Below, in pieces: positions 3,245-12,890 of a DNA stretch of 64,000 nucleotides. The notes below the pieces were generated by a model that saw only the letters and a program-made list of their open reading frames with translations, did not search any database and had not been told where the DNA came from. Origin of the DNA: Chryseobacterium glaciei (lineage in GTDB: Bacteria > Bacteroidota > Bacteroidia > Flavobacteriales > Weeksellaceae). Within the stretch, counting starts at the first letter, position 1, and the number at the start of each line of letters is the position of its first letter. The stretch spans positions 1,374,501 to 1,438,500 of the forward strand of contig NZ_CP015199.1 of the NCBI RefSeq assembly GCF_001648155.1, given 5' to 3'. The translations under genes and the position numbers were made by a program.

Positions 3245-3823
3245 TTATTCTAAATTTAAGAAGTCATATTCAACATTAGACTGGTGATAATTTCTAAAAA
3301 CCTCAAGCGAATCAAAATATTGCATAATCTCCGTTCTATTCAATTTACTTTCTTTTTCATGATTTAAATATGAATTATATGAAGAGTGCTTCCATTGATC
3401 AATTTTATTTACAAATCCATGATTAACTGGATTATTGTGGATATAATGTAAGACTTTTAGTAAATATTTCTCATCTGATATTTTCTTCCGTTTTACTGCA
3501 TTAAGAAAAAGAGCTCCTTTTCGGTTATACTTTTTATTAAATGCTTTTGCATAGGAATTCAGAAAATTACCAAAATTCTTCATTAAAGACCGATGTTCAT
3601 CTTCCACATTTATACCTTCAATATTTTTAAATCTTAATAATAAATGAAAATGATTCGGCAACAAACAGTATGCATAAATATCTGCAATTTGAGTAATATA
3701 TTTATCTAATTGTTTCAGAAAAAATTGATAGTTCGTCTCTTCACGGAAGATCAATTCTTTCCCATTCACATGAGAAAAAATGTGATATACAGATTCAAAC
3801 TCAAAATTTTCTGTATTAATCAT
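3245..3823 (-). CDS. REP-associated tyrosine transposase (RAYT, Y1_Tnp / IS200-like)
   Basis: A 192-residue HUH-type single-strand nuclease of the Y1 transposase family. The metal-binding motif is HFH (residues 58-60, in LLPNHFHLLL) and the likely nucleophile is Tyr127 in LHYIHNNP. RKGALF near residue 102 is also typical of RAYTs. These are domesticated relatives of IS200/IS605 transposases that process REP hairpins as single-stranded DNA. The gene is framed by two identical hairpins, ending 14 bases past its stop and beginning 15 bases before its start, which supports a RAYT/REP unit. It is inserted among the paa genes in the same orientation. No accessory tnpB or second IS gene is seen. Confidence 0.9.
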   Translation of the reverse strand: MINTENFEFESVYHIFSHVNGKELIFREETNYQFFLKQLDKYITQIADIYAYCLLPNHFHLLLRFKNIEGINVEDEHRSLMKNFGNFLNSYAKAFNKKYNRKGALFLNAVKRKKISDEKYLLKVLHYIHNNPVNHGFVNKIDQWKHSSYNSYLNHEKESKLNRTEIMQYFDSLEVFRNYHQSNVEYDFLNLE

Positions 3824-8656: not shown

Positions 8657-9457
8657 TTATTTTCCTTTATAATTAGGCTTTCTTTTTTGTAAAAAGGCGC
8701 TTACCCCTTCTTTGAAATCTTCTGTTTCAGCTGCTTCCTGTTGTAGATCACCTTCTAATTCAAGCTGTTCTCTCAGAGTATTTGTATAAGACTGAGCGAA
8801 AGCTTTTTTAGTCAATTTAATCGCTGCAGTTGGCATATTTGACATTTTTTCAAGGATTTCCATTGATTTTGGAGCGAATTCTTCTTCATTGAAAATTTCA
8901 GCAACCAAACCGTACGATTTTGCTTCATCAGCAGATAATCTTTTTCCTGTGAATGCTAAATAATTTGCCAATTGTCTTCCCAATAATTTTGGTAAGAAAT
9001 ACGTTCCACCTGTATCAGGAATCAATCCAATATTTGAAAATGCCTGAGCAAAATATGATTTATCAACCGCCAAAACGAAGTCACAGATCAATGCCAACAT
9101 TGCGCCAGCTCCTACTGCAGGACCATTTACCAATGCAACAACAGGTTTTTTACATTTTGTAATCTCTGTCACCAAAGGGTTATAATAATCTACCACAATC
9201 TTTCTGATGATATCGTGGTCGTGGTGTTCGTTACCTTGTACGAAAGCATCATCCAAGTTTTGACCAGAGCAAAAAGCTTTTCCTCTTCCTGAAATTGCCA
9301 CACATCTTACTGTATCATCGTCGCTACATTCTTTAATGAAATCTTTTAGATCTGATAAAGACGGCTTTGTAAGAGCGTTCATTGTGTCTGGTTGATTGAG
9401 ATAAGCAATTTTAAGTTTTCCGTCAAAATGCGTTTCAATATCAAGTTGTGTATACAT
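8657..9457 (-). CDS. paaG: 1,2-epoxyphenylacetyl-CoA isomerase PaaG (crotonase family)
   Basis: 266 residues. Crotonase-fold features are the oxyanion-hole loop AFCSGQNL near residue 63, GPAVGAGAMLAL near 115, and LGLIPDTGGTYF-like IGLIPDTGGTYF near 142. The C-terminal EGVSAFLQKRKPNYKGK closely follows E. coli PaaG (262 residues). It isomerises the ring epoxide to oxepin-CoA, the substrate of PaaZ. It follows paaD. PaaF is a related crotonase; the end motif and position favour PaaG. Confidence 0.9.
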   Translation of the reverse strand: MYTQLDIETHFDGKLKIAYLNQPDTMNALTKPSLSDLKDFIKECSDDDTVRCVAISGRGKAFCSGQNLDDAFVQGNEHHDHDIIRKIVVDYYNPLVTEITKCKKPVVALVNGPAVGAGAMLALICDFVLAVDKSYFAQAFSNIGLIPDTGGTYFLPKLLGRQLANYLAFTGKRLSADEAKSYGLVAEIFNEEEFAPKSMEILEKMSNMPTAAIKLTKKAFAQSYTNTLREQLELEGDLQQEAAETEDFKEGVSAFLQKRKPNYKGK

Positions 9458-9506
9458 GGTTTTAAATTTAATGTTTAAAGAATTAAAAAATTACACTGCT
9501 CTAATT

Positions 9507-9536
9507 TAACAATATTAAATAACGTAGCAATGTATC
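9507..9536. repeat. Left-half octamer array remnant, paaG-paaD spacer
   Basis: The sequence starting AACAATAT and ending GCAATGTATCA resembles the left arms of the octamer arrays at 8552 and 13188. The matching right-half type lies at 12100-12133, so the two halves bracket paaD plus the beta-helix gene. Confidence 0.4.
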
Positions 9537-9571
9537 ATTTTAATGACATTTAAAATAATCAAAAGGCTCTA
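9537..9571. repeat. 35-base direct repeat, copy 1 (native paaD 3' end)
   Basis: This segment encodes the last ten PaaD residues (LEPFDYFKCH) and the stop. It is identical, base for base, to 11973-12007 and in the same orientation. This is the functional copy because it is in frame with intact paaD. Confidence 0.9.
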
Positions 9572-10007
9572 AACAGTCTAAACACTGATACGAAGCCTTG
9601 CATAATGTAGACCCGAATCTGCTAATCTGTTTTGAATGCATAGAACCACAACGCGGACATTTTTTCGGTTTCCCGATGTGATGTTCGTCTGCTCCTTTTT
9701 CTGGAGGTGAAATTCCGTACACACGAAGTTTTTCTCTCGCTTCATCCGTCAACCAATCTGTTGTCCAAATCGGAAACATTTTGGTGACTACTTTCGCATC
9801 CCAACCGTTTTCCTTCATGATTTTCATGATGTCTTCCTCAATGGTAAACATAGCGGGACAGGCAGAATAAGTAGGCGTAATAGTTACTTCACAAGAATTC
9901 TCGCTCGTAACTTTCGCTTCTCTTACAATACCTAATTCCACGATATTGATTACCGGAATTTCCGGATCGGGGACTTGTGTTAATATGTTTAAAATATTGT
10001 TTTGCAT
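9540..10007 (-). CDS. paaD: Phenylacetyl-CoA epoxidase maturation/accessory subunit PaaD
   Basis: 155 residues. The N-terminal DUF59/MIP18 domain (about 5-85) contains VPDPEIPVINIVELGIVRE and TPTYSACPAM. The C-terminal zinc ribbon has CPRCGS and further cysteines in TLCKASYQCLDCLEPFDYFKCH. PaaD is needed for active epoxidase and is thought to act in iron-sulfur maturation of the complex. It is normally directly after paaC; here a beta-helix gene separates them. Its last 10 codons are duplicated at 11973-12007. Confidence 0.95.
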   Translation of the reverse strand: MQNNILNILTQVPDPEIPVINIVELGIVREAKVTSENSCEVTITPTYSACPAMFTIEEDIMKIMKENGWDAKVVTKMFPIWTTDWLTDEAREKLRVYGISPPEKGADEHHIGKPKKCPRCGSMHSKQISRFGSTLCKASYQCLDCLEPFDYFKCH

Positions 10008-10045
10008 AATTAAAAAGAAAGATATGCTTTTTTAATTTTAAAGCT

Positions 10046-11833
10046 TTATATAGGAAGATTATTGTGATAATTACCTACTTTAATGTTATCAGTATAATCT
10101 TCTAAAAATGGTTGTACACAATCATAAAAGATATTGTCTTTTACAAAATTTTCATGACATCTTAAAAATAGACCATATTTAACATTATTTATTTCATTAC
10201 TTGATATGGCAATCCTATCATCAAGAGAACTTACTGTTACTAAAGGTTCAACATTAATTATATTTATAGTAACACCACTTCCTTTGCTATTCCCTGAAAT
10301 AAAATTATCATTTATACGCATTCGCCCCATAAAAGTATGATTTCCTGATAGGCCATTTACCTGAACCCCAATAAAGCCAACAAACTGTGCCTCTTTTCTT
10401 CCATTAAGATGATTATCATTAATATAAATTTTTTCTACATTATTAGATTGTAGAAGTGAAGTATCATAACCTCTTTTAAATCCGTCAATTTCTATACCTA
10501 TACCTATAAGATTCATTACTTGGTTATTATTAATCGATACAACACTTACATCACCATGAATTTTAACTCCATATCTTAAATTATACATTTTATTATGGGA
10601 AATTTCAATATTTTCTGCTGCACAAAAAGGGGATAATCCTTGTATCGTAATTCCATGGCTAAATTCACTAGATGAATCTAAAATATTATTATTTATACTT
10701 ATATTCTTAAATTCTGTTTGATTATATTTGGGTTCTTCTCTAGAGGAGGACATAATCATTCCATCTTCGTCGGCAATTAATTGATGAATAATATTATTAC
10801 TAATAATTCCATTTTTTCTGGTTCCGTCAAATCTAATAACACCCCAAATCATATTTTCAAAAATATTATTAGAAATGATAAAATTATTCACATTATCATA
10901 AAAATCTATTGCATAGAGCCTGTGTCCTCCGGCATGGTTTCTTCCACAATATTCAAAGTAGTTATTATTTACTAAAACTGATTTAAACTCACCAAGATCA
11001 AAAGCAAAAATTGCAACAACACCATGATCCGGATTTGTGTTCTCTGCATTTTTGAAGGAATTATTTTCTATAACGACTTCTGCATAACGAGATTGCGCTA
11101 TAACTAAGTGTTCCATTACATATTTTTGTTCTTGCACTCCACTTTCAAAAAGATTATTACGAACTAATATATGTCCTCTATGGCAAGAATAGATATTTAC
11201 AGCACGATTATATAAATCAAAAAAACTACAATCTGTAATTTCAATATTGCTTGATTCTGTTATATAAATACTACCGTTAAATTCTTTTGGTGCTGGGGAA
11301 GCTGCATTATCGTCAGAATTATAAACAGGTAAATTCCTTTTATTTTGGTCAAATCTAAGTCCTTCAATAATGAAATTATGACAGTCATTAAAACTTAAAT
11401 AAAATCCTTCGACACGATCATTTGTACTAGGCTTAATTAGTGTGTGTTGCTTATCCCCCAAAAGTTTAAAACAGGAAATACCATCAAAACTTAATTGTTC
11501 ATTAACAATATATTCTTTCGCATCAAATCTTAAAGTTGCTCCTAAATATGCTGCAGTATTAATTGCTTTAGTTAGCATGACTTTATCTCCGGTCCCATTT
11601 GTTAAATCAGTGGGATAAGTACATCTGTACCATTCTATATTAATGGTATTCTCTGTATAAATGGCTTTATAATATTTCCCATTTTCTTGTTTCAGAACAA
11701 CATCATCTAGTAAGCTAGTACTAATAGGGTCTATTTCTTGATAACGGATAATTTCTCCGGTATTGTGAAATGTTTTAGTAAGAGTGGATTCCTGACATGT
11801 TGATGGAAATTTCAGGCTGTTGCAATTTGTCAT
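10046..11833 (-). CDS. Right-handed beta-helix protein (pectate-lyase-like), passenger in the paa operon
   Basis: 595 residues. After an N-terminal part of about 90 residues comes a tailspike/pectate-lyase-like opening (NGTGDKVMLTKAINTAAYLGATLRFDAKEYIVNEQL). It is followed by many parallel beta-helix coils rich in Asn and Ile, such as IEITDCSFFDLYNRAVNIYS, ILVRNNLFESG, VVIENNSF and FIISNNIFEN (roughly residues 130-570). No signal peptide or lipobox is visible, unusual for a carbohydrate-active beta-helix protein. It sits between paaC and paaD, next to a fragment of paaD, so it was probably acquired. It could be a phage tailspike-like protein or a cytoplasmic epimerase/lyase; the substrate is unknown. 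Confidence 0.75.
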   Translation of the reverse strand: MTNCNSLKFPSTCQESTLTKTFHNTGEIIRYQEIDPISTSLLDDVVLKQENGKYYKAIYTENTINIEWYRCTYPTDLTNGTGDKVMLTKAINTAAYLGATLRFDAKEYIVNEQLSFDGISCFKLLGDKQHTLIKPSTNDRVEGFYLSFNDCHNFIIEGLRFDQNKRNLPVYNSDDNAASPAPKEFNGSIYITESSNIEITDCSFFDLYNRAVNIYSCHRGHILVRNNLFESGVQEQKYVMEHLVIAQSRYAEVVIENNSFKNAENTNPDHGVVAIFAFDLGEFKSVLVNNNYFEYCGRNHAGGHRLYAIDFYDNVNNFIISNNIFENMIWGVIRFDGTRKNGIISNNIIHQLIADEDGMIMSSSREEPKYNQTEFKNISINNNILDSSSEFSHGITIQGLSPFCAAENIEISHNKMYNLRYGVKIHGDVSVVSINNNQVMNLIGIGIEIDGFKRGYDTSLLQSNNVEKIYINDNHLNGRKEAQFVGFIGVQVNGLSGNHTFMGRMRINDNFISGNSKGSGVTINIINVEPLVTVSSLDDRIAISSNEINNVKYGLFLRCHENFVKDNIFYDCVQPFLEDYTDNIKVGNYHNNLPI

Positions 11834-11892
11834 AATTAATTTTTTTTTGTATTGATTATTTTAAATATGATCATTAAAAAATGATACTGAAG

Positions 11893-11900
11893 CAAAAATA
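11893..11900 (-). promoter_or_regulatory. Possible Bacteroidota -7 box upstream of the beta-helix gene
   Basis: The minus strand reads TATTTTTG, matching TAnnTTTG, 59 bases before the start codon. The nearest TTTTG upstream is only 14 bases away, shorter than usual, so the call is weak. Confidence 0.3.
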
Positions 11901-11972
11901 AATGCTAGTAACGACAAAACTCGTCGTATTATTTACATGAAGTAATTTATTTTGTAAATGACTTCTTCATAT

Positions 11973-12007
11973 TTTTAATGACATTTAAAATAATCAAAAG
12001 GCTCTAA
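11973..12007 (-). pseudogene. paaD 3'-end fragment (direct repeat copy 2)
   Basis: An exact 35-base copy of 9537-9571, encoding the last ten residues and stop of PaaD, with no upstream paaD sequence. It is left over from a duplication, replacement or insertion event that put the beta-helix gene between paaC and paaD. Confidence 0.85.
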
Positions 12008-12099
12008 TTATTAAGTTCGCAAAGGCATTTGATTTCACTCAGCAAAGTCAACAAAGAGTAAAACTCTCTCAATGACACTTTAATATTTCACTTTTAAAC

Positions 12100-12133
12100 T
12101 TGTTACATTGGTAAATTGCTTCATTGTTACATT
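12100..12133. repeat. Right-half octamer array upstream of the paaC stop
   Basis: Units TTGTTAC, ATTGGTAA, ATTGCTTC, ATTGTTAC match the right arms of the arrays at 8618-8649 and 13249-13283. No left arm is present here; the nearest left-type arm is at 9507-9536. Confidence 0.55.
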
Positions 12134-12140
12134 TAAAAGT

Positions 12141-12890
12141 TTACCACGTACAACCAGGATACGCTCTTTGCATATATTGCAATTCGCAAAGCATAAATCC
12201 GAAATATTCTGTATGATAACCTGTTCTTGATTTTGGTTGCATAAAAGGATTTGTCGGATATTCTAAACCGAAATCTGCAAAATCTTTTTTGGTAATAGAA
12301 AGAAAATCTTCATACAACGCATCAACATTTGGAGCGATGTTTAAAGCAATTAAATCATCTTCTCCTTCCACTTTTGCGAATAAACCTTTTGAATATTCCC
12401 AGATATTTTCAAGAGATTTCACCAAACGAGCTTTACTTTCTTCTGTTCCCTGAGCGAAAATTTTCATCCAAGATGCAGCGTGAGTATAATGATACCTTAC
12501 TTCTTTCAAAGATTTTTGAGCAAGAGCAAAAAGTTCTTCATCTGCAGAATTTGACAATGCCTCGTACATCAATTTCTGATACACTGCGAAAATATACACT
12601 TTAAGAATCGTCTGCGCATAATCTTCATTCGGAAGTTCAACCCAATGCGCATTTACGTATTCGTGCTCGTATCTTAAAAATGCTAAATCATCTTCACTTT
12701 TACCGTTATCGGCAACTCTTGAAGCATAAACATAAAAGTTGTTTGCTTGTCCAAGCTCGTCTAATGCGATGTTTGTTAATGCAATATCTTCCTCTAAATA
12801 AGGACCTTCACCGCACCACGCAGACAATCTCTGTCCCATGATGAAACTGTCGTCAGCAAACTTTAATAAATAATTGAATAGTGCGCTCAT
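12141..12890 (-). CDS. paaC: 1,2-phenylacetyl-CoA epoxidase structural subunit PaaC
   Basis: 249 residues, a ferritin-like four-helix protein that forms the core dimer with PaaA. Family features include LSAWCGEGPYLEEDIALTNIALDELGQA near residue 22 and the C-terminal GYHTEYFGFMLCELQYMQR. Its start codon overlaps the paaB stop (TAATG, one base shared), so translation is probably coupled. Length matches E. coli PaaC (248). Confidence 0.96.
   Translation of the reverse strand: MSALFNYLLKFADDSFIMGQRLSAWCGEGPYLEEDIALTNIALDELGQANNFYVYASRVADNGKSEDDLAFLRYEHEYVNAHWVELPNEDYAQTILKVYIFAVYQKLMYEALSNSADEELFALAQKSLKEVRYHYTHAASWMKIFAQGTEESKARLVKSLENIWEYSKGLFAKVEGEDDLIALNIAPNVDALYEDFLSITKKDFADFGLEYPTNPFMQPKSRTGYHTEYFGFMLCELQYMQRAYPGCTW

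Follow-up and report, generated by a model that had tools for sequence, protein, structure and literature searches.

Insertion with long target duplication has been described for restriction-modification genes of Helicobacter pylori (Nobusato et al., 2000, as cited in PMC1643837 and PMC3154945), where, according to the citing text, an accessory gene lies between direct copies of host sequence and a mobility mechanism was suggested. The locus studied here resembles that case in its arrangement and differs in that the duplicated target would be an entire gene, the cargo is tailspike-like, and related units are present in 17 genomes, with either copy apparently lost later. A validated pathway of such a shape is found in the transformation of Streptococcus pneumoniae, in which merodiploids arise when a fragment pairs at two places of sister chromosomes, followed by unequal crossing-over and tandem duplication; the duplications, which start from repeats (IS copies, for example) and span about 100-900 kb, were shown in the laboratory, as described in the merodiploid account of PMC3784515. 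The pairing is like that proposed below, whereas our duplication, deduced from genomes, would measure about 0.5 kb and start from the two ends of a single gene in permuted order. Islands of the integrase type contain a recombinase gene within the element, unlike the present unit. The beta-helix tailspikes of phages (Pam1 7EEA, Sf6, HK620 and phi29 gp12) were compared with the inserted protein, which, judging by its structure model, shares their right-handed beta-helix fold; in contrast to them it is accompanied by no adjoining phage genes. No paper on the paaD/beta-helix locus was found among the matches listed for searches on Chryseobacterium paaD/beta-helix, insertion-duplication and long target duplication, which mostly covered literature outside the subscription journals.

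The window, i.e., the whole stretch of 64,000 nucleotides of Chryseobacterium glaciei that was analyzed, contained, on the minus strand, a phenylacetate (paa) operon with the order paaK, paaE, paaA, paaB, paaC, bh, paaD and a paaG-like gene in the list of open reading frames (ORFs), where bh denotes the inserted beta-helix gene. The genes paaC and paaD were named by profile match, whereas the names of paaK, paaE, paaA, paaB and the paaG-like gene are presumed; the enoyl-CoA hydratase ORF at 8657..9457 was taken to be paaG-like from its position as well. Elsewhere in the window, a 192-aa ORF at 3245-3823, which we take to resemble a REP-associated (TnpA-type) transposase, had no Pfam match at E 0.001. 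The features of the locus are as follows.

12141..12890, minus strand: paaC, the gene before the insertion (PF05138, 252.7 bits)
12008..12140, minus strand: native paaC-paaD spacer, initial portion (alignment to bh-less relatives)
11973..12007, minus strand: 35-base "tail", the putative remnant of paaD1 with its final 10 codons and the stop (repeat search)
11834..11972, minus strand: bh leader, arriving with bh (upstream of bh in the window as well as the 16 other carriers)
11893..11929, minus strand: promoter-like motif ATACGACGAGTTTTGTCGTTA and -7-like TATTTTTG (motif scan)
11852..11871, plus strand: imperfect inverted repeat of the paaD 3' end (repeat search)
10046..11833, minus strand: bh, predicted 595-aa right-handed beta-helix, tailspike- and lyase-like
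9985..10045, minus strand: "head" of the unit, the gap behind bh and the first paaD codons, unit-type (comparison with relics)
9540..10007, minus strand: intact paaD (paaD2), of native type starting near codon 9 (profile and comparison)
9538..9572, minus strand: 3' end of the intact paaD, the other copy of the 35-mer (repeat search)
8657..9457, minus strand: paaG-like enoyl-CoA hydratase, the gene after the insertion (homologue there in 16/16 other carriers, tblastn)

The identical 35-base direct repeat, which an earlier note on this DNA had reported, was real, with its first copy lying at 9538-9572 and not at 9537-9571; this copy comprised the last 10 codons and the stop of paaD plus two bases. 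Between the two copies the ORF list held the intact paaD (155 aa) and the 595-aa bh and no other gene, hence no recombinase; paaD matched TIGR02159 PaaD (167.3 bits, above the curated threshold of 108.15) and bh matched Pfam Beta_helix PF13229 (32.8 bits against a cut-off of 25.9). In the genome of 4.87 Mb exactly two copies of the 35-mer were found with up to 3 mismatches, compared with 0 for the control, and not the many copies that the earlier note would have counted against its reading. Chance and a dispersed repeat were both excluded by this count, and an origin from a dispersed repeat was rejected for want of a third copy. That note does not mention the paaD 3'-end copy lying inverted at 11852-11871.

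The sample consisted of 173 genomes of the genus, including the one under study; 172 matched the PaaD query, of which 117 were viewed at the paa locus (window included) and 55 were not fetched. The bh query matched 27 of the 173 genomes at E 0.001. The gene lay beside paaD in 17 of them, while the 10 other matches were weaker (best E from 1.7e-43 to 1e-3) and located elsewhere. All 16 other carriers showed the order paaC - intact paaD - bh - paaG, with an extra gene in some, and the window was the exception and their mirror image, having the paaD 3' relic before bh and the intact paaD behind it. A paaD2 relic was found behind bh in 7 of the 16; it was a 5' part in six (L064, L069, L070, L072, L074, and L075), where a second paaD start stopped after about 27 codons at a similar place, and the 3' end in L065. 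No paaD relic was found behind bh in the remaining 9/16, among them L078, whose check fell on the wrong stretch. None of the loci viewed held both paaD copies intact; one copy was a relic or not found in 17/17 carriers, and a complete long duplicate was absent. No second paaD was detected in the 100 bh-less loci at E 1e-6, a setting that also missed the short relic of L064, so that at this setting the host sequence flanking the insert, present twice in the window as the 35-mer, occurred once in the insert-free relatives. The paaD-paaG gap of all 100 bh-less loci viewed was 63-245 nt and without a gene, and the paaC-paaD gap contained other genes in some of them.

Several further observations were made around paaD. 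The paaD gene ended in TGTCAT in 15/16 carriers and 26/100 bh-less genomes (Fisher p 2.8e-7, from counts that ignore kinship); this association was left out as proof because related genomes are not independent. A protein of about 950 aa, in which an FG-GAP repeat scored above the cut-off and a T9SS sorting domain fell slightly short of it, was found between paaC and paaD in L066, L076, L078, L259, and L270 and behind bh in L063 (4326-7214), which reads as another change of side around paaD.

At the left junction, a query of 175 nt (30 nt of the paaC end, stop and spacer, and the first 9 nt of the relic) aligned over 166-167 nt at 80-85% to the bh-less L083, L087, and L097, and the same native end point, CTTTG.GAACTTAA, was found against the bh-less L231 and L256. 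The window spacer followed these five relatives up to CTTTGCGAACTTAA (one base off in L087, L231, and L256), past which, at about 12007-12013, it jumped to the tail, skipping the remaining spacer and the paaD body. The 33 bases of the tail up to the stop were identical in L231 and L256; with the native spacer before them, they agree with the earlier proposal that the orphan tail marks the original end of paaD. In the tail the window has TTAGAGCCT, which was present in 0/16 other carriers, 10 of which have CTGGAGCCG; from this comparison the relic of the window is of native type and not of donor type. Beyond the tail the sequence turned into the leader common to the carriers. Since native and unit sequence are nearly identical within the tail, the left crossover cannot be placed inside it.

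At the right junction, the window bases before and in the first paaD codons matched the paaD2 relics that follow bh in other carriers such as L069, and differed from bh-less starts. The relic of L069 reads TTTTTAAATTATGCAAAACAATATTTTAAACAT and the window reads the same minus one A. The change from unit to native sequence was located within about 9985-9993, so that only the first approximately 9 codons of the intact paaD are unit-type and the gene reads onward like the bh-less L079 and L080; the donor-like 5' part of paaD anticipated in the earlier note thus held for these codons, and the remainder was native. Behind the paaD stop, 82 of 83 bases equaled each of the bh-less L231, L256, L079, and L089 (1 mismatch). 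Across the whole paaD, 21-29 positions differed from those four and L080, which leaves none of the fetched relatives as the exact parent. The head is short, with three differences from L079 in the 18 aligned bases 7-24 of paaD, in addition to its longer start. Its exact 21 bases were found in 5/173 genomes, namely four carriers (own included) and the bh-less G122, and with 0 or 1 mismatch it was the start of paaD itself in G062, G099, G122, and G159. The clade of these four genomes may be the source of the head; that the head is an ordinary paaD start in a clade with a bh-less member weighs against the duplicative insertion proposed below.

We consider it likely that the stray paaD piece is the scar of a duplicative insertion of bh by homologous recombination, after which the opposite paaD copy was lost than in the sister strains. 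The relics behind bh in other carriers are most simply read as remains of a whole paaD that once stood there, and an ancestral paaD1 - bh - paaD2 from which either copy was later lost would fit this pattern. The native spacer and native relic, together with a unit-type sequence limited to the head, suggest that bh arrived in the form [paaD tail - leader - bh - paaD head]. In the proposed mechanism this unit would travel between Chryseobacterium strains and pair at two sites, through its tail at the 3' end of the paaD already present and through its head at the 5' start of another paaD copy, e.g., on the sister chromosome, in an ends-in (interchromatid) manner. Because the ends of paaD are permuted on the unit (tail left, head right), such recombination would yield paaD1 - bh - paaD2, with bh inserted, paaD duplicated and its function kept. 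In the window a later deletion would have removed some 70-100 bases of spacer together with the paaD1 body and spared the tail, whereas in the sister genomes paaD2 would have been trimmed instead. Two full copies of paaD could recombine and eject bh, so the trimming may lock bh in. Both relic types and the contrast of native and unit junctions are read directly from the alignments; the two-full-copy intermediate and the order of events are reconstructed rather than seen. Natural competence has been reported for Riemerella, a related genus. Competence was not found under the same conditions in Flavobacterium johnsoniae, and Chryseobacterium is not mentioned in the main text of that study (PMC7965970), so the uptake of the unit by natural transformation is a guess.

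The leader with ATACGACRAGTTTTGTCGTTA and a TANNTTTG-like box was common to the 17 carriers, with slight departures in L068 and of one base in L072 and L077. In Flavobacterium, the -7 element is usually a box of this kind. The inverted paaD 3'-end copy was also found before bh in the carriers, more weakly in L066, L076, and L078. The tail might have been kept as the arm of a regulatory hairpin, or as part of an inverted repeat flipping the bh promoter; tail and inverted arm were predicted to form a long hairpin (z-score -6.48, 0/200 shuffles as good), and their similarity was 32.9 as against 17.5 (sd 3.2) for shuffled arms. We regard this as improbable, since the own tail matched its own arm (32.9) and the arms of other genomes (32.4) equally, which gives no sign of co-variation; the tails of 100 bh-less genomes scored 32.6 against an arm, and those of carriers 37.0. 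Co-variation of tail and arm was looked for and none was seen. The orientation of the motif was constant in 17/17 carriers and no invertase was seen; moreover, a hairpin could account for a spared tail, but not for the arrival of bh. No Rfam family matched positions 9400-12200 at gathering scores.

Vertical descent from an old tandem duplication of paaD-bh within the lineage, with no transfer, would have a precedent in the two tandem bh genes behind paaD in L066 (G062), each with a leader motif. It appears highly improbable, since paaD is chimeric, with a unit-type head and a native-type body, and the bh tree contradicts the host tree. In the AU test with 16 genomes, bh rejected the host topology (p 1.6e-50) and the host genes rejected the bh topology (p 8e-6), where the host tree was built from six paa proteins of one operon, which may itself recombine. 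L078 (G159), with broken reading frames, was left out of both trees and the second bh of L066 was left out of the bh tree. Compared with the window, and without the broken L078, the bh proteins differed by 28-55%, whereas paaC, paaD, paaG, and paaH differed by at most about 15%. The closest relatives of the window in the host tree of 36 tips, L089 and L080, had no bh. These trees and distances show, at the level of sequence, that bh spreads horizontally. The closest of 55 bh homologues had 72% identity to that of the window, and every named organism among them was Chryseobacterium, many rows being without a name; 41 of the 55 were used in alignment A1 and 14 were dropped.

Site-specific integration at the 3' end of paaD, with the 35-mer as the attachment core, could explain an exact direct repeat at a gene end and the repeated use of the paaD-paaG slot (bh in 16/116 loci); it is very doubtful, because the gene body lies within the repeats, the paaD relics include the 5' end and vary in extent among carriers, and no recombinase was read among the ORFs between paaC and paaG. 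Besides paaD, this interval contained bh alone in the window and, in the 16 carriers, bh and two other ORF families of at least 80 aa (gaps scanned), neither of which was read as a recombinase, one of them after a Pfam scan; the preference of the earlier note for recombination or duplication over an integrase is in line with these results. Its own version, in which a segment with bh and a complete new paaD replaced the old one, would account for the unit-type head and is scarcely credible, since the paaD body past codon 9, its 3' end and the downstream flank are as in bh-less relatives.

With duplicative insertion as the preferred reading, the nature of the cargo was considered. The structure model of bh, a monomer, was a right-handed beta-helix resembling phage tailspikes and polysaccharide lyases, in line with the earlier note, which had suggested a structure search against both, and lyases and epimerases scored nearly as high as the tailspikes over a shorter stretch (RbmB 29.3, AlgE6 28.5). 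In Foldseek with this model, RbmB was at rank 1 and Pam1 at rank 11, with all TM-scores below 0.5 in the best 50 rows. The N-terminus, MTNCNSLKFPSTCQ..., judged by eye, showed no signal peptide, in agreement with the earlier note. No match was found for bh in the PDB by sequence (E up to 0.1), in PADLOC, NCBIfam and PHROGs (E up to 0.01) or in 50,697 phage records, and no second bh-like paralogue that could serve as a source was found in the own genome at E 0.001 with the bh query. Distant paralogues of bh were found beside typA in seven fetched genomes (L100, L104, and L106-L110), and relatives of bh with a signal-peptide-like start were found inside surface-polysaccharide clusters (L101-L103, and L105), the gene names in both cases being assigned by reading. 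The contractile sheath Phage_sheath_1 (PF04984) had matches in 62/173 genomes, 31 above the cut-off, and none in the own genome, so bh could not be linked to a sheath; other particle types lay outside this search. Our proposal for bh is a tailspike-like protein, synthesized without a signal peptide, that binds or cleaves polysaccharides.

The promoter-like motif of the leader was searched as a degenerate 19-mer and was found in 103/173 genomes, compared with 0 for the reversed control. In the own genome the motif had 14 sites (five of them at 1,866-1,879 kb) when up to 3 mismatches were allowed, and the control had 2. Some of the motif sites preceded genes for an M15 endolysin, a patatin, a Tox-MPTase4-domain protein and two further beta-helix-like proteins (one supported by Pfam), and others preceded a WYL-domain protein and several family-less or ambiguous proteins. 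The downstream genes were followed for 49 distinct sites in the fetched loci, a non-random sample in which four were the paaD-site bh itself, and A..TTTG was found at a fixed distance from the motif in 41 of the 49. When the proteins after the motif were grouped by similarity, two groups, with 14 and 5 members, were beta-helix or pectate-lyase-like, one of 5 was endolysin-like, one of 4 was a giant protein without a Pfam match, and another of 4 had an RHS-like neighbor, with 11 singles besides; some of these labels were given by reading only. The motif was also seen at L177, L178, L179, L182, L183, and others. The occurrence of the motif before endolysin, toxin and beta-helix genes suggests that bh is part of a scattered gene set of phage and toxin flavor, and we propose that it is produced together with this set.

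A wider reading, which we offer tentatively and hold to be possible rather than probable, sees in the unit [gene tail - cargo - gene head] a mobile gene free of a recombinase, the cargo serving as the exchangeable tailspike of a dispersed weapon. The permuted target ends would allow entry into any strain of the genus via ordinary homologous recombination, the target would always be duplicated and never broken, and the decay of either copy would then fix the unit, while the parts of the weapon (endolysin, toxins, and beta-helix proteins) would share one promoter motif.

The event is ordinary in its parts, and what is unusual is the completeness of its record. The locus offers a natural case in which a gene would have entered an operon with no visible recombinase and no harm, both outcomes being preserved in sister genomes. 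This suggests that a stray copy of a gene end elsewhere may carry the same meaning, and integration through permuted ends becomes directly testable. The common promoter-like motif may serve as a handle on the phage- and toxin-like genes in Chryseobacterium.
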